From the NCBI RefSeq assembly GCF_021134715.1, contig NC_060019.1:5952001-6016000 (forward strand): a stretch of 64,000 nt of DNA, given 5' to 3'. Each line of letters opens with the position of its first letter. The stretch's first letter is position 1. The notes beneath the pieces are model-generated. The model was not told the DNA's origin and did no database searches. It saw only the letters and a list, made by a program, of their open reading frames with translations. Below, piece after piece: positions 51,655-61,291 of the stretch. This DNA is from Daphnia pulex. Its lineage: Eukaryota; Arthropoda; Branchiopoda; Diplostraca; Daphniidae. The translations under genes were made by a program, and so were the position numbers.

Positions 51655-54600
51655 TTAAGGCACTGGGACTGAATAGTGTCTTTCGTCCTCCTCAATTATG
51701 GATATTAAATTGTTGGAGGATTCAAAATCTGGGTAAGAAGTACGTAGATCCACATTGTCCTGCCCATCAAGGTTCATGGTCGTTGGGCGATATACGTCTA
51801 TTCGGGCATGAAGTGCAAATCCCAGTAAGTAATACTCTGCCTAAAATTAAAAAAAAAAAAAATGCAATGAAAAAACTGTATGATTCTCTTTATTCACTAG
51901 ATCTTCTACCATTCTTACGTTCCTCTGATATGAGCAGCAGTTAAATAAAGCGTAAAGACTGAGTAATATTTTTATCATTTAAGAATTCGTGAAACAAAAG
52001 CTAACATACCCGTTGTAAAGTAGTCGAATCTCCAATCGGATTTAGATAATTCATTGCCAATCCCTTGACATTTTTGGAATCGGGGCGCGAAAAGAGGCCC
52101 AGGGCAAACAGTGGAAAAGAGTCTCCAAGTGAATCGGCCAAATTTAAATTCAATGCGGCGCTCAACATGTGCAACTTTAGAGCTTCCATCAGTTGCGTGT
52201 CCAACACCAAGTCTGCATTCAAGCGAGACACAAGAGCTTCCAATGGATCATTTTCGCTGGCCAAGTCTTCCATCTGCAAAAAAATAGGAAACAGTTTTAG
52301 CAAATCGTATCACGTTTCAAAGGATTTTGTGAAAAATACCAAACGATCCAGCGTTTCTAGACACAAATGAATGCCCTGGATGACATTGTTGCGTCCATAA
52401 GGCAATCGATGACCAAACGTCCATTGACGTATCCATTCCCCTCCTTGAGCCAGTTCACGATCAATAGAGTCGATAGCTTCACTAGCTCGTGGCCAAGGAA
52501 TCTTCTTCATCACCATCTGGCATAATGTTGCTCTGAGGATGCCGTAGTTGTCTCCACGCATTTTCCTCATTCTCCGACATTCGGTTAAGCGTTCCAATTC
52601 GATGTAGGCCTTTGCAAATGAATTAAGATATGAGTCAAGCTGACACGATTGTGACGCAAACTAAGGCATACTTGTTTAATAGTCTGAGCACGCGGCGTTG
52701 GGGCTTGCCATGTATCCTGGGCGTAATGATGCAATAGGACGGTAGATCCAACCGCTTCTTCTCTCCAGGATGCTTCCAGATCGAGTCCAAGATCAGAGAA
52801 GGCTGAATCCCGATTATGTTGACTGGACTTTGCCCATTGTCGACGTTTGACCACTCCACTTCCAGCGACGCTATCTTCATGGGACGAATCGTCAGGACTA
52901 GTCATGCAACTACTGTAGGATGACGTCGTGGTGCAGCTCATGGAATCACTCTCCCTTTTCAAGAGAAATGAGAGAATGTTTTCCATATCATTCCAGACGT
53001 TGAAGATTCTTTATTTTTCATACCTCTTCTCTTGAAGAGGTGAGAGGATCGAAGCCGATGTAAAAGAGGCCGATGCATCACTGCCAGGTGTTGTTCCCTC
53101 CCACTCCAAGTAGCCAGATTCTTGCGAGCACCAAACAGGATCAATGTTTTGAACTTCCAACAACTTGCCACTTTTGTACATGGGAAGCGCTGTGCAAGAG
53201 GCTGAAAGTACTGGATCCGCAAGTAACGCCGATTTCTCATCATCATCGGGCTTTTTCTGTGTGTAGTGGTTGGGCGGTTGCAAATCAAGATTATCCCATT
53301 CCATGGATATTCCATCTTCATCACTAAAAATTGTAAAAAACCAGATTAATATTATTCCATGCAAAAAAATATTGGCATTGATGGATGTTACCTGCCAGAG
53401 ATAAGGGGTAGCTGTACGTGACTAGGAGAAAAGTCGGAAGCGTTGGATGCCACGTCGCTGATTTCGTCGGAGATAGAGGTCAGGTTGAGCATGCCTTTGA
53501 ACGAGGATTGCGACAAATGGAGGGGAGCCAATTCCATGTTCATACCTGACAGATCAATCTCAGACCCACCGCTTGTCGGGTGATCGTGAAGAGTGTACAA
53601 TTCGTGGTTCATGGCCAAACAATTGTTCTTGACGCTGTTTATTTCTTGCTCGATTCGTTCAATGACTTCCAAGGTGTTTGAGCTGCAACCTGCACTGAAA
53701 GGCAAGTCTAGGGAGAAATCCGAGCAGTCACTATCGACTGAACACTCCCGGATTAGTCGACTCACTTCACTAGCTCCGGATACGAAAGATTCTACAGAAC
53801 CGTCCCACAGGCTCCAGGAGACTCCATCAGACTGTAGAAAAGAGAAGAATGACTCAACATTTCAAGAATAAATAAACGTGTGTGAAATATACCTGAGAAT
53901 GCGGATCTTTAACGGACAAGCTGTAGGAACGTAAACGATGTGAACGTATTGGTGAAACTTCTTGTGAAGAAAATCCGGAGAAGGATTCACTAGACTGATG
54001 GACGAAAGTTCGTTCATCTTGTGCAGGTTTGTGCATTGGGTACGTCAATTCTTTAAGCTTGACCAATCCGTCTGGAGTGGAATAGCTCGGGCGAAGTGGC
54101 AGTGGATGGAATCCGAGTTCCTGTTTCTGTGTTTGTTTACGGCGGCATGCCACGTGACGCCAGCGAGTGCGAATTTGATCAGCTATGTACACTCCTTTAC
54201 CAATCTAAATTTGGAATGGGTTAAAAATAAAACGATAGATTTTGATCGAGTGAGTGAGTTTGCCACATAAAGTATTTACCTTGCGTTTCGGTCGGTGATC
54301 GGCCGCAAGGCAGTTGAGTCCCACGGAGATATCGATCTCGAACAAGTCAAACAAATCCTGAATTCAATCACGATACATCGTAGTTAGTAATGGAGAAGTG
54401 ACCATGCTGGCCAGGCCGTTCTGGAGACGACCACGCTATTTATGGATCAATAGGTGGAAGGGGTCCAACAGGCAACATTCGGATTGACGTCATTCGACAG
54501 TACGTACCTCCTCCATTTCTTCACAATCCTCGCCGCCGTCGTGTTCCATTTCAAAGGACATGGGAAACAAAGAAGGTGGTATTCCTCCGTCTATGAACCT

Positions 54601-55037
54601 CCTATGCATCGAGTATAGCCAGTGGTAACAGAGTACTCCGCCTACTCCGAGAAGCACTACGATTCCTGCTGCCTTGGCTATAAATGTACAAGACAATTAA
54701 ATTTATGAAAGATGACCATATGGATGAACTGTGATGGATATATACCCGAATGTTTGGCGACAGCCCATGCCTGTTCGAGCCAACAAATTTCTATGCCTAT
54801 ATTTCCGGAAAAGGAACACACATTGCTCTCTAAGGCGATAGCGCCTGGAGTGGCTACTAAACCCAGGGTGGAACATGGGGAAAAAAGTCCTGAATTTCCA
54901 CCTGGGCTGAAGTAGACAGCAAAAAGAAGGCCACCGGGTACTGAACCGGAGTAATCAAACATGCTGGACCTGGGCGAGCGACTATTGACTGGAGACGCTT
55001 CGAATTCGTCCTCCAACAATATGAATCTTTTCTTCAT
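51655..55037 (-). CDS. OTULIN/FAM105-type protein with membrane segment and altered catalytic site
   Basis: Ten exons (55,037-54,746, 54,677-54,508, 54,357-54,280, 54,204-53,893, 53,831-53,392, 53,323-53,024, 52,954-52,672, 52,609-52,340, 52,273-52,010, 51,840-51,655) splice in frame to 864 residues. A transmembrane helix lies at about residues 100-120 (AAGIVVLLGVGGVLCYHWLY). A long Ser-rich, probably disordered middle follows. The C-terminal OTU domain of the OTULIN type (about 630-864) shows RKMRGDNYGILRATL, GEWIRQWTFG, LFALGLFSRPDS and EEDERHYSVPVP. Human OTULIN has the nucleophile in GDNYC and the catalytic H and N in RHYN. Here they are Gly (residue 648, codon GGC at 52,543-52,541), His858 and Ser860. 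It should therefore be a pseudo-deubiquitinase, like membrane-bound OTULINL, rather than a linear-ubiquitin hydrolase. The isopeptidase loss is inferred from residues. Confidence 0.85.
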
Positions 55038-55970
55038 TCCAAGTAGAAAGGCTCCAATGGAGAGATGAGTTGCAAACCAGCATCAAGCTTGGATTTTCTT
55101 TAACTGACTTTTGCTACTGTCACAGCAAGTGGTTGGATGCTGTGTGTCTTCAACAGATACCGTTTCAGATCTGAAATATGCACAACAGATATCCCTATAG
55201 GAATCTTTGGACAAAATTGAATATTTAGCAATGATCAATCAATATATCTCTTATGTAATTTACATCTTTGTTTAGCTCAAATATAATTCATAGAAAATAC
55301 TCACCTTAAACATTTTGGAGATATGGCAAACAATAGTAAATGAAAAGTGTTGGGGGGTGTGAAAGAGAAAGCAGTTAATACCACAAAAATGGAGAAAAGG
55401 TCTAGCTAAGCTTGTGAATCAATAATTTTTTTACTTGAGGTGAATTGACAATGACCGAAACGTACCACCGCGTTGGGTTTTTATCTAAGGGCCAAGAGCT
55501 CTAATCTACGCAGTCTACGTGATTCTTATAACGTAAGAAATTGTTTACCTTGTGAAATAATCAGATTTTGGCTTTCCCTTTAGGTGGTGTGATAATGTTC
55601 TAGCCTCGGTTGGAAGACCAAAGGTTGCCGGGCCGCAAATCGGCCACGGCTTCCTTTCGATTAACTTTAAACGCAGTCCAATCTATTGTGGTGGTTGACG
55701 TAAATCCTATCATCCAAATACTTAAGTAAACACACTTTGATTCACCCAGAAACTGGGCACAACTACTCTTCAGAATCCATCACTGTTGATGTCTACGACC
55801 ACAATATTACTAGTAGACAGCTGAGCCCTCCAGCGTCTAGAGGGAGATACTCATCGTCAAGCCAAAAGAGAGCTGCTTACGGTAATATTATTTCCGCCTA
55901 CAATACGCAGAACGCAGTATAATGTGAAACATGAAAAAAAAAAATATATTATTAGCGTACTTTAGAAAGG
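55038..55970. other. Intergenic/5' region of the OTULIN-like gene
   Basis: No supported coding exon. The plus ORF at 55,737-55,922 (MIHPETGHNY) has no recognisable domain. Confidence 0.4.
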
Positions 55971-57918
55971 CAGAGCTATAGATACCTGGTCAGTTCATGG
56001 CTGTGTTGGCTTCCCTATCCCGGTTTCAGGGTAAACGTAAGCCGATTTGGAAGAATGAATGAGCGCCTCTAGTGAGTGTGTCAGCTACTACGTGAAGCCA
56101 GCCAATCAGGAAGGGTCTATGAAAAACTCATTGGCCAATCACAGCTTACTTTTCTACAAGAAGTAAACAATAATAAAAAGGAGAAGTATCCAACTGTCAA
56201 ACCTCTAAGTTTTATCTAACTTCTAAGTGTCCTATCTTTTTAAGTGTCCTCACATTTTTACATTTTATTGTTTGGTTGTGTAAAAAAAATATGTGGTGTA
56301 AATACATGGTACGTTTTATTCTTAGTTACTTTGAATTTTATTCTCTTTCTGCAATATTTCGATCTTAACACGCCAGCTGAGTCCAATATACCAGAAAGAC
56401 GAGATTAAAAGTTAATATTTATGAACCTTTAATGAGGAATGCATGAACAAATTTTTCGATCGTTGAAATCCTTTATCAATTGCGTTATATTTTCAACTGT
56501 TGTGAAATGGTTTGACAAAGCAGTAGTGCTTGATGGAATGTTCTTTCCGTTGACATAATACATTACTTCTTGTTTGTTTTGAAAATGTACACTTTTCACA
56601 TTATAATTTCCATTTGGTAGTTGATCCATCGAAATGCAATAAATCATTTGTTTGATTTGATCAAAAGACCATATCCAATTCTTTGGTATCATTGATAAAG
56701 TTACTAGTGACTGAAATGTCACAAAATTAGACTTGAAATTAGTAGAGCTTGCTTCCATAGAAGGTGATGTAACTGTCGAATCTTCAATGACAACAGCAAC
56801 GTTTTTGTTCATTACATCAGGAAGTGGATCAAAAATAGCTTCTTCAGCAGCCTGGGGAATGTCCATTGATTCTTGAATAGTAGAGGTAGCTTCCATAGAA
56901 GGCGATGCAACTGTCGTATCTTCAATGACAACAGCAAGATTTTCTTTGCTTGAATCAGGAAGTGGATCAACAATTCCTTCTTCAGCAGCCTGGTGAATGT
57001 CGATTGTTTCTTGAATAGTAGAGGTAACTTCCATGGAGGGTGCTATAAGATAAAATTAAAGCAATTGCTCTTCAAAATAAAATGTAAAGAGAACTATTAT
57101 CAATACCTGTACTGTCAACTTTTTTTCTCTTTGACGTAGTAGGTGGTTTGTCTACTTTTGGTCGTTTCCTTACTGATGCATTGCTAGCATTTGCTTCCAC
57201 TGCAATACATATTTAAGAATAGCGTTATTTGATGTTAAACAAAATAAACATATGTAAAAATACCATTAAGGTTATTTCTCCATTTAAAACCATCAACATT
57301 TTACATTGCTTGTCGGCTAGATTGTATCTAAAATGAAAATGGTTTAGTTTCTGTGTGACATTAAAGATTTTACAGGAAAGGAAATACATACCATTTATGA
57401 GAAAATGTTTGGGAATTGCTCCAGCATTAAGATGCCTACGTTGGAAAGGATGGAACACGTTAAAAATTTAAATCCCTGATTTAAAGTCACTTTCGTCAAA
57501 ATGACGGGAGCAAATACGTGAGGTGCTCGTCAAATTGCTACATGGAATTAGTTCTTGCCATTTTGATAATGAAGTTTTAGGAACTGCAAACAAAGTTACA
57601 TCATTTTCTTTTTGATTTCCTTTGTAATATGTTGTTTTACAACCAGGAACAGCACACCTGCCAACCATTTTTACAGAAATTATGGTTAGGCTTCATTCAC
57701 GTAATACACGATGATGGCCGCCGTATTCACATATTACACAAAAATGGCCGCCGAAAGTATTCAACGTCTTATCACTAGATGGCGCTGATTCATTCTTCCA
57801 CTTCACAACTTCTGACAAGCTCCGCCCTAAAACCCCCTGAAAATCGGCTTACGTTTACCCTGAATCCGGGATAGGGAAGCCAACACAGCCATGAACTGAC
57901 CAGGTATCTATAGCTCTG
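55971..57918. mobile_element. 1,948-bp TIR element carrying a THAP-protein gene
   Basis: The 78-bp terminal inverted repeats (55,971-56,048 and 57,841-57,918) differ at one base and start CAGAGCTATAGATACCTGGT. They are flanked by a 7-bp direct duplication AGAAAGG (55,964-55,970 and 57,919-57,925). The element is thus complete and fairly recent. Inside is one minus-strand gene with a THAP domain and no recognisable transposase. The CA...TG ends and the 7-bp duplication would suit the P superfamily, but this is inference. Confidence 0.92.
56429..57668 (-). CDS. THAP-domain protein with 46-residue tandem repeats
   Basis: The start ATG at 57,668 opens a THAP zinc finger: MVGRCAVPGCKTTYYKG, KWQELIPC and SRICSRHFDESDF. 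A second exon at about 57,434-57,391 (HLNAGAIPKHFLING) supplies the AVPT-like box. Later exons encode a basic stretch (RKRPKVDKPPTTSKRKK, about 57,200-57,105, a likely nuclear signal). The last large exon (57,042-56,429) begins with two and a fraction copies of a 46-residue unit (TSTIQE, DIHQAAEEG, DPLPDSS, VVIEDTTVAS) and ends with an aromatic-rich C-terminal domain (IPKNWIWSFDQIKQMIYCI, then YNVKSVHFQNKQEVMYYV). That domain has no family known to me. The junctions between exon 1 and exon 3 are not all certain. Confidence 0.65.
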
Positions 57919-57925
57919 AGAAAGG

Positions 57926-58909
57926 TAATTCAGCGCCACGTACAGAAATTGCTGCCGTTTTGAACGGTAAGGGGCACTAGAGGGAAAACCGAGGCACTAA
58001 ACGAATTTATGATGTAGCACGACAATGGAGCAGATCGCAGAATCGCTAGGCCGCTGACCGTTCAACAACATCCGTTTTGCGGTTTTCCCAAGTCCTCAAT
58101 GCATTTGATTCTTTTACCACGGTTGGCAGTTGTGTATAATGGATAACTTCCGTTTTGTTTTTCCGATTCGTTGTCTTATAACGCTTTCTGATTGAAGCGA
58201 TCTCCGTGAAAATCTATTATCCCAAAATAACTTTACAGATTTCACTTTTTCGGCTTAAAAAATTATTCACCCTTAACTTAACACCCTAATAAACATACTC
58301 TAGTTGCCAAGTTGGTCGTCCATTACAAAAAAGTTTCAACGTTTGCGTGAGCACGCCGGTATTTACTGGATTGGCTTCATTTCAACAAGACATTTTCCCT
58401 TTTTTTTCATTTTAAAAATATTTGTGACGCCACTATTGTAAGCGTGACAAAGCACGTAACCTGTGGGTAAAAATGGACCAGATAAGATGCAAAATCACGT
58501 CCGACTCTAGTTACCGCGGAAAAGTGACGACGCGGATCGTGCGTTCGCGAAGGAAGAAATTTCAATTAGTAATTAAGACACGCGTGGGCTTTGCAGTATT
58601 TTCTTTTCTCAGCAGAATTTTAAAAAGAAAATTAATATATTTTTCCATGATCTATAAATAATTCAGCACTAGAGTGCACATGTCCAAGAATAATTTCATT
58701 TTTTGATTTTTTTTAATCTTTAAAAAATGTCACGACTTGAAATTTCCCTTTCACAGATGGCGTTTTAACAATAATGCTAGTCCTTTAACAGATGGAGCGC
58801 GCAGTCTGGCAGTGCAGACGAAAAATAAAGTAGTCCCTAGCCGCAAGCCCGCAAACGTTTGTGTTATTATACATGTACCAAAATAAAAACAAATTCGTCA
58901 AGTTCTGTT
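57926..58909. other. Intergenic, COA7 copy 1 upstream region
   Basis: No gene. The segment CAGATGGAGCGCGCAGTCTG...GCAGACGAAAA (about 58,789-58,825) recurs in variant form before COA7 copy 2 (about 61,501-61,535), so the duplication included the proximal promoter. Confidence 0.5.
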
Positions 58910-61291
58910 ATGGCATGGAATTTCAAAAATGAGGAAGAGGTGAAACAATTCTCTGATAAGTTGGGAAACGACTATAGGTTTGGATGTTTCAACGAAAAGA
59001 AACCTGAAGGTGAGATCGGTATTTGTGACCAATGTTACCGGTAAAATCTATTGCACTCCGGAGTCCGGAGCGCTCTAGTGTCAAAAGTGGCTATTGCACT
59101 CCGGAGTCCGGAGTCCTCTAGCGTCAAAAATGGCTATTGCACTCCGGAAAGGAAACATGTAGTACTTTCATTTGGCGGCGAATGGCATTCTGTTTCTGTG
59201 TTTTGAAATTTGAATGGTTTTTATTTGAATTCAAAATAAATAACAATCAAATATATTTGAATTTCACTAATAAATACAGATAGTCGGATAATGATAGTAG
59301 TAAGATGGAACTTATATTTAGTTATTGTTAACTTAGCTAGAGTACTATGTCCAACATTGAATCAGTACCTTAAAATTCAAATTGTAAATATAGTTAAGTG
59401 TCTTGCAACAGGAATAAAGGAGAATTTATAAAACATATCAATTCAGGGTGATATTTCTTGTTAACATTTTTAACTTCTTGCTCTATTTGCTAAGGTGTTA
59501 CCACAATTCCTACTCACACAAAATTCTTCATAAGCCTCGATATCAATATCACCAAAAGGATTGGAAATCAGGTATTTCTGTATTTCATTGCAGTTTATAT
59601 TACACAGAGATCATTATATTCAAAGTAAGGATTTAGACAGGTTGTTAAACACGCTATAAACACACGACATAGTGAGTCACCCTCTGACACCCCCATACTT
59701 GCCTGAAGGTCGAGCCGGAATTCTCAGAACGGGGCTTCGAGGGGTTCTTTGTGACCTTGAAACGCATTGACCAGCAACTCACTATTTCTGCTGATTGACA
59801 CGTAACGTGTGATTCAGCTGATTTCACGCTATAAACCATGCAATGTCCGTGTCCCTTATTCCAATAAACTAACAGCTAGACACGTCTTTCATATCTTGAA
59901 ACAAAACAATACATAACTAAGTTAACATGCAGTTTCCTTTATTATAGTGAGAATATCAAAAGACATTTTAACTGAATTGTGAGTGCGAAAAAATACTTGG
60001 TATTTTCGTGTTCAGTTTCACTCGGTGCTTTGTCATCACATGAATGAACTGACAATGAAAAAGTAATTGATTTAAGAGGGGAAAGAATTGGCACATATGG
60101 CGGCGTCAATCAAAGATCCTTTAAGAGCGGAATATGGAAGCGCCTCGTCCTTTGATGATGGGTTGCTTTGGGTTCAAACGCCGAGGAGAATAGAGCAAGA
60201 AGTTGAAATGTTTATCAAGAAACATCACCCTGAATTGATATGTTTATACATTCTACTTTATTCCTGTTTATTTGCAATTTGAATCTAAGGTACTGATTCA
60301 ATGGTGGACTCTCCGACTCTAGCTAAGTTAACAATACTAAGTCCCATCTTTTATACTGGCTAATGGCTATTTGTGTTTATTAATGAAATTCAAATATATT
60401 TGATTGTTATAAATATATTGCAAATTTATTTCTTACCCTTAATTTAATTTTTAATGAATTCAAAACCAGTAAAAACACAGAATCAGTCGTTATTTGCCAT
60501 TCGTCGCCATAAATGACTTCATATTTGACTTCATATTTCCTTTCCGGAGTGCAATAGCCACTTTTGACGCTAGAGGACTCCGGACTCCGGAGTGCAATAG
60601 CCACTTTTGACACTAGAGCGCTCCGGACTCCGGAGTGCAATAGGCGTGACCAATGTTACCACGTTCACACACTTAATGGTTTGTTTGTTTGTTTGATGCA
60701 GTATGCCATCTTCTAGGAGATTTCATGGAAGGCTTCAAAAGGGATTTGAAAAAAGCCGCTATTATATATCGATCCACTTGTGATGACTACAGTTTCAGCC
60801 ACAGCTGTCATAAATATGCTACCTATTCATTGACTGGTAAAGGTAGTCCACCCGACTACCTGAAAGCATTTGAATACTTTAAGAAAGGCTGTCATTTGGA
60901 AGATTCAGGCTCCTGCTTTTTTGCTGGCCTTATGTGTATGTATGACAATGAAAACACTAAAATTAAACAAGATTATCTTCAAGGAATGGGATTTCTGAAT
61001 CAGTCCTGTGACAAAGGAAACCACAACAGCTGTCACTATATCAGTGGGATATATTTTTTCGGGGTTCCTGATGTTTTGAAGAAAAATATGGCCACAGCAT
61101 ATGACTACAGCAACAAGGCTTGTGAACTTGGAAATATATATGCTTGTGCAAATATAAGCAGAATGTACAAAAAAGGTGATGGAGTTGAGAAGAATCCTGA
61201 ATTAGCAAATGTATATAAGAAAAAAGTCATTGTTATGGGAAAGGAACTGAAAGATCAATTTAAACCCGTTGAACTGGAAAGGGAAGCCTGA
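58910..61291 (+). CDS. COA7: COA7 (Sel1-repeat) protein, copy 1
   Basis: Exon 1 at 58,910-59,009 (MAWNFKNEEEVKQF, ending EKKPE) and exon 2 at 60,702-61,291 give 229 residues, close to human COA7 (231). Exon 2 holds Sel1-like repeats: [62 protein letters not shown] and [20 protein letters not shown]. Regularly spaced cysteine pairs are typical of this intermembrane-space protein, which helps assemble cytochrome c oxidase. The 1,692-bp intron contains a complete foldback element; copy 2 has a 66-bp intron at the same place. The reading frame is intact. Confidence 0.9.
59025..60660. mobile_element. Foldback element with tandem-repeat inverted ends in the COA7 copy 1 intron
   Basis: A 15-bp direct duplication GTGACCAATGTTACC flanks it (59,025-59,039 and 60,646-60,660). 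The inverted ends start CTATTGCACTCCGGAGTCCG at 59,048 and end at 60,643. Each end has two and a half tandem copies of an approximately 53-bp unit (GCACTCCGGAGTCCGGAG..., then CTCTAG, GTCAAAA). The inversion continues inward, weaker, through CAAATATATTTGAATTT and TTGTTAACTTAGCTAGAG, to about 59,395 and 60,278. The arms are thus about 350 bp. The middle holds a short ORF at 60,097. Confidence 0.85.
60097..60282 (+). CDS. Short ORF inside the foldback element, origin unknown
   Basis: From ATG 60,097 the frame encodes MAASIKDPLRAEYGSASSF, then WVQTPRRIEQEVEMF and IKKHHPEL before entering the right arm. Its composition is that of an ordinary soluble protein. I do not recognise it. It may be a captured first exon. 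No transposase is present. Confidence 0.3.
   Translation: MAASIKDPLRAEYGSASSFDDGLLWVQTPRRIEQEVEMFIKKHHPELICLYILLYSCLFAI

Follow-up and report, generated by a model that had tools for sequence, protein, structure and literature searches.

Does the element bounded by terminal inverted repeats (TIRs) at 55971-57918, in the 64,000-nucleotide stretch of Daphnia pulex DNA analysed here (the window), make a THAP protein that acts on its own ends, or is it only moved by a protein made elsewhere? The first-pass annotation, which was made from the sequence alone, had put forward two answers: an element mobilised in trans that encodes a THAP repressor or helper, or an element whose C-terminal domain is an unrecognised catalytic module.

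Ends, exons and full-length relative of the window element

The 78-nt TIRs lie at 55971..56048 (left, plus strand) and 57841..57918 (right, minus strand, located by inverted-repeat search). The two arms are 99% complementary, with one mismatch, and other copies of the left arm are present in the genome. Direct reading gives the target-site duplication (TSD) AGAAAGG at 55964..55970 on the left and at 57919..57925 on the right, neither being assigned a strand. The subterminal inverted repeat is found at 56048..56067 (plus strand) and 57781..57800 (minus strand) by an inverted-repeat match of 95% and by comparison across copies; its start lies about 78 bp in from one end of the element and 118 bp in from the opposite end.

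Between these ends, four exons are read on the minus strand. Exon 1 (57392..57668), supported by its open reading frame, by Pfam and by copy alignment, encodes the THAP domain (PF05485, E 2.9e-11) and contains a premature TAA at codon 67 (57468-57470). Exon 2 (57264..57327) was placed by comparison with sister copies and has a 1-nt insertion in common with the sister L016, and exon 3 (57107..57199), a basic linker, has splice sites that are conserved in sister copies. Exon 4 (56429..57042), an open reading frame whose acceptor is also conserved in sister copies, contains tandem repeats and a pre-catalytic domain and runs to the stop codon. The repeats consist of two 138-nt (46-residue) units at 56740..57015 with 86% identity, and a third unit starts at 57014-57033. 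The domain is a 113-residue W-x-W domain at 56432..56770; in the full-length relative described below, it comes before the catalytic exons, on their N-terminal side. The inverted repeats with one mismatch, the 7-bp duplication and the THAP finger in a minus-strand gene had all been noticed in the first-pass annotation and are confirmed here, as are the basic linker and the splicing; its two-plus repeat copies come to two and the start of a third. The gene, however, is not intact, with a stop at residue 66 and the insertion in exon 2. An Rfam search of positions 54000-60000 gave nothing at the gathering score. About 2.8 kb from the element, a 204-residue open frame (60677-61291) has what we take to be a resemblance to Sel1-type repeats.

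In the genome searched (133.19 Mb, 13 contigs), a full-length relative, L012, is found at C7:3952755-3957776. It measures 5,022 bp, has the TSD TAAAAGG and ends of the same kind as those of the window element, and its exons, with splice sites read by eye, encode in order the THAP domain, the repeats and C-terminal domain seen in the window element and, after these, a P-type transposase. The transposase part matches the Pfam models TNP-like_RNaseH_N (PF21787, 1e-20) and TNP-like_GBD (PF21788, 3.7e-7) and the Drosophila P transposase structure 6p5a in PDB (8.6e-10). Two L012 aspartates align with aspartates of 6p5a that we take to be catalytic, and a PDB search with the C-terminal exon of L012 gave no match. 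When the window element is aligned to L012, element positions 1-374 correspond to L012 1-363, and position 377 onward corresponds to L012 3175 onward, a part that aligns piecewise since the two differ in repeat number. The junction falls at 56344..56347 of the window (no strand assigned), where 2.8 kb of L012 with the transposase exons is missing, and the RNase-H and GTP-binding region is thus absent from the window copy. This comparison bears out the earlier view of a P-related element that would need mobilisation in trans. It also realises the case that the first-pass annotation had set against its own reading, i.e. a copy with a longer interior and a P-type transposase, of which kind of element the window copy is a deletion derivative.

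L012 and the window element share only 89-91% identity, and so we regard L012 as a relative that is not necessarily the source. Its own TIRs differ from each other by 7 edits in 78, and therefore it may not be the current source. The 259-residue transposase exon of L012 has 84 matches in the genome, the next best of which by score is 50% identical; no near-identical exon besides that of L012 was found in this genome search. A group of 1.73-kb copies (the L017 type) has a deletion junction different from that of the window element, and therefore the deletions arose more than once.

The THAP frame and the origin of the element

When the THAP frame of the window copy is read through the conserved splice sites, it stops inside the THAP domain, codon 67 being changed from GAA to TAA. 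A frame survey covered 32 copies, 21 of which have the THAP gene without transposase exons or host cargo; L021 and some partial copies lie outside the survey set. The frame stops at residue 66 in 12 of these 21 THAP-only copies (the window copy, L030-L038 and both L019 elements), and for L032, L033 and L038, where the exon-2 pattern was unmatched, the stop was read from a separate comparison of THAP copies. Six others (L015, L017, L018, L029, L020 and the outer L009) have a frame open for 301-482 residues. L016 stops at 95, or at 327 if exon 2 is skipped, and L014 stops at 125. L011 is split by a 5.5-kb insertion (L011:1731-7236) with frames of 470 and 1290 residues, presumably related to a LINE, which they resemble.

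L016 is 99% identical to the window element but lies at another genomic site with a different TSD, which points to recent movement of this form. The change from GAA to TAA at codon 67 is present in the window copy and the L030 group and absent from L016, despite the near identity of the latter to the window copy; such a distribution would correspond to recurrent mutation or conversion. The largest group among the THAP-only copies is the L030 group, which is made up of eleven closed copies, and this suggests that its amplification did not need the encoded protein. In pairwise comparison of 12 copies over 65 THAP codons, changes are few and dN/dS lies between 0 and 2.8.

P elements with internal deletions are well documented, as are repressors of the KP type (PMC7776569, PMC12393704). 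With a KP-like function in this family, truncated THAP proteins of the deletion derivatives would bind the element ends and repress transposition. The six THAP-only copies with open frames speak for it, as does the precedent of small P elements encoding repressors, e.g. the 207-residue KP protein (PMC7776569). On the other hand, the window copy and 11 others of the 21 are closed inside the THAP domain, and the dN/dS values give no sign of selection for a truncated protein. By our reading, a putative zipper-like stretch of L012, rich in lysine, is lost with the deletion as well; in KP the dimerisation part is retained. We consider a KP-like function improbable. For the window copy itself, the THAP repressor or helper proposed earlier is unlikely because the frame stops at residue 66 and exon 2 carries the 1-nt insertion; unlike a KP-type repressor element, this copy lacks an open truncated-THAP frame.

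The C-terminal domain raises a different possibility, an autonomous or helper element with a new catalytic module. The domain has no Pfam model at the cut-off, which would leave room for this proposal. Nevertheless, the 113-residue domain aligns, at 87%, with the segment of the L012 protein that is encoded ahead of the catalytic exons, so that what had been described as an aromatic-rich C terminus is, by sequence comparison, the pre-catalytic part of a P-type transposase. A domain search of the genome with E up to 1 gave 32 matches. Eight of them do not belong to the family (20-44% identity), and two of the eight are weak (E 0.015 and 0.07). Two of the eight, distant relatives at C3:9059087 and C8:1051491, lie on the same strand upstream of matches to the L012 transposase exon at 9058392 and 1050569, respectively. 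The distances from domain to exon at the two loci are 483 and 704 bases, and the exon matches cover the first 71-73 residues of the L012 transposase exon. Five columns (W, W, C, I and F) are invariant in nine aligned domain sequences. We read the 113-residue region as a domain of the P-type transposases of this genome that would stand before the catalytic exons. As the window frame is closed besides, a new catalytic module there is scarcely credible. We give as little credence to the capture, on one occasion, of a host THAP gene by a TIR element of another kind. Animals commonly have THAP genes, but in L012 the THAP exon is the first of the P transposase gene, and in the 32 copies surveyed it begins next to the same TIR (L022 with a single TIR in the sequence examined); a single-copy host THAP gene is ruled out by this gene structure and arrangement.

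The window element is, very probably, a non-autonomous internal-deletion derivative of a P-superfamily cut-and-paste transposon. Comparison with L012 shows that it retains both ends, with the 78-bp TIR and the subterminal repeat, together with exons 1 to 4 of the transposase gene, and that about 2.8 kb containing the exons for the RNase-H and GTP-binding parts is gone. Its movement, now or in the past, would occur only through the action on its ends of a transposase from a full-length copy, L012 being an example. Because it no longer encodes a complete THAP domain, this copy is most likely a passive substrate competing for transposase and not a source of repressor. The junctions suggest aborted or template-switched gap repair as the likely origin of the deletions and also of the host DNA in the sister elements. 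No host gene fragment is present within the window element, which aligns to L012 on both sides of the gap. Taken alone, it is an ordinary, routine deletion derivative whose gene is broken, and its kind is known; the sisters that carry host genes make the family more interesting but not this copy.

The genome family and related P systems

The genome search for the TIR that the first-pass annotation had recommended revealed a large family of copies and not a single element. A DNA search with the window element gave at least 136 matches, with 40 of 140 candidates scored, and a 21-base end pattern had at least 150 matches at up to 2 mismatches compared with 0 for the reversed control. The TSD census covers 38 elements with two ends, L049-L053 being left out with one or no readable end. 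An exact 7-bp TSD was found in 30 of the 38 and an 8-bp TSD in four, while the outer L009, L046, L047 and L068 have none. Two insertions are nested in other family members (L019, L009), so that the empty site is known, and each duplicated 7 bp. The family also includes MITE-like elements of 274-284 bp with the same TIRs (L068-L073), five of the six having 7- or 8-bp TSDs.

The subterminal repeat occurs in several sequence variants (as in the window element, L010, L043 and L068-L070), and within an element the variants at its left and right ends tend to be alike. This was evaluated on 33 elements, five of the 38 being dropped with one end unreadable. For the 12-base cores in 11 distinct pairs, the edit distances add up to 25, while shuffled pairs give a mean of 37.9 (p about 0.003); shared descent remains in this shuffle. 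L014 has two ends unlike each other in this repeat.

Several marks of the P superfamily are present, namely the THAP domain, the P-type RNase-H core with a GTP-binding insertion (in L012) and the TIRs, and the superfamily TSD of 7 or 8 bp is found in 34 of the 38 elements. Like the Drosophila P element, the family has a multi-exon transposase gene with the THAP exon first, an RNase-H core with a GTP-binding insertion in the full copy, a TIR plus subterminal repeat and many internally deleted copies (PMC12393704). It differs in its TIR of 78 bp compared with 31 bp, in a TSD of mostly 7 bp compared with 8 bp and, with respect to both P and KP, in the tandem 46-residue repeats and W-x-W domain after the THAP domain and in the broken protein of the window copy. 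Galileo, a Drosophila member of the superfamily, has a 7-bp and sometimes 8-bp TSD and a TIR longer than that of P (PMC4168063, PMC3688188), although its TIRs measure 0.5-1.2 kb. The P-MITEs of Anopheles, which are short and have P ends with unrelated interiors beside P masters (PMC1562414), resemble our 274-284-bp forms. Their TSD is 8 bp, and the origin of their interiors is left open (PMC1562414), whereas two parental host loci are identified here for the longer forms.

Nine families of P elements were listed for D. pulex in a survey of 2010, PelementA1.1 to A8.1 together with PelementNA9.1, which is non-autonomous, and each has 1 to 20 BLASTN copies (PMC2884549, Table 1). The present family may be among these nine. 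The words THAP and captur are absent from the main text of that survey (PMC2884549).

Host DNA between the ends of sister elements

Host fragments are present between the TIRs of L043-L048, L010, the inner L009 and L013. In the first eight of these (L043:4017-7261, L044:1112-4355, L045:3747-6990, L046:981-4224, L047:205-4072, L048:2361-4843, L010:318-3431 and L009:379-3494), the pieces are 96.8-98.6% identical to C11:2687996-2690371, and the cargo from this locus amounts to up to 2.4 kb. The parental locus holds the 3' part of URB1 (NopRA1, 1.2e-12) facing the gene for the ATP-synthase OSCP (2.1e-23), of which the elements have taken up a part. Six of the eight elements have a TSD, and one of the eight, L043, also has a THAP domain (Pfam PF05485, 1.1e-12). 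The right capture junction is identical in all eight: the parental sequence stops at position 2972 of L067, and the filler that comes next has one sequence throughout, except that 6 of its bases are missing in L043. The left capture start falls at parent position 597-598 in L043-L046, at 640 in L010 and the inner L009, and at 1488 in L047 and L048; later deletions from one capture would explain these different starts. L043 and L010, which carry one and the same capture, have different subterminal variants at both ends.

A second capture is found in L013:285-2133, where 1.15 kb is 90% identical to C10:9417385-9418554 (L065:1501-2670). The parental locus L065 has a NUDIX match (5.7e-5), and none was obtained in the frame tried from L013 itself. 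A 323-bp part of the piece captured by L013 is also present in L050. Captured pieces run through intergenic and apparent intron DNA, and therefore DNA, not RNA, was copied. Four capture junctions were inspected, two of which are blunt and two have filler of 21 and 4 bases, which would fit template switching in repair.

Compared with the parent, the captured URB1 piece has N/S values of 0.07-0.16 in six copies and 0.36-0.41 in L047 and L048. Changes common to six copies number 11 synonymous and 3 non-synonymous, and the variable ones comprise 3 synonymous and 7 non-synonymous changes and 1 stop. In this comparison, L047 was left out, and the slices of L044-L046 extend 6 bases past the junction; the number of columns compared with the parent equals that of L043, and so these extra bases are taken to lie in gap columns. 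As the shared changes are mostly synonymous and the variable ones mostly non-synonymous with a stop, we take the constraint on URB1 to predate the amplification, with none visible afterwards.

The sisters, but not the window element, resemble the animal Pack-TIRs in having a host fragment between TIRs, a TSD and a parental copy elsewhere (PMC8277862). That survey reports 370 cases, 323 of them hAT or TcMariner. Multicopy cases number four in reference genomes, besides the fly family Ssk-FB4, and captures by P are described there for artificial activation (PMC8277862). The origin it proposes is gap filling for single-copy cases and fork switching for multicopy ones (PMC8277862). No natural multicopy gene-carrying P element was found in the gene-capture literature searched, which took in few subscription papers and no supplements and in part of which papers writing only 'P-element' could be missed. 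We consider it likely that the family is a natural multicopy Pack-P in an animal, in which P ends have captured multi-exon host DNA (URB1 with OSCP, and the NUDIX locus) and transposed it repeatedly, with subterminal variants that look as if end recognition had been exchanged or made uniform at both ends together. This one genome combines the full-length relative with deletion forms, MITEs, forms that carry host genes and both parental loci, a compact natural case from whose junctions gene capture by P-type transposons can be read. Moreover, where partial URB1, OSCP or NUDIX genes, or THAP genes, are annotated in this genome, they may be cargo of a transposon.

Two further interiors were examined as captures and rejected. 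L014:1458-2210 has a 753-bp interior of repeated sequence where the transposase exons would be; its pieces match 24 places including itself, mostly repeats, and it was not counted as a host gene. The interior of L049 consists of dispersed repeats, and no second TIR was found for it. Among the elements with URB1 and OSCP cargo, L045 shares a contig with the parental locus and ends 77 kb away from it.
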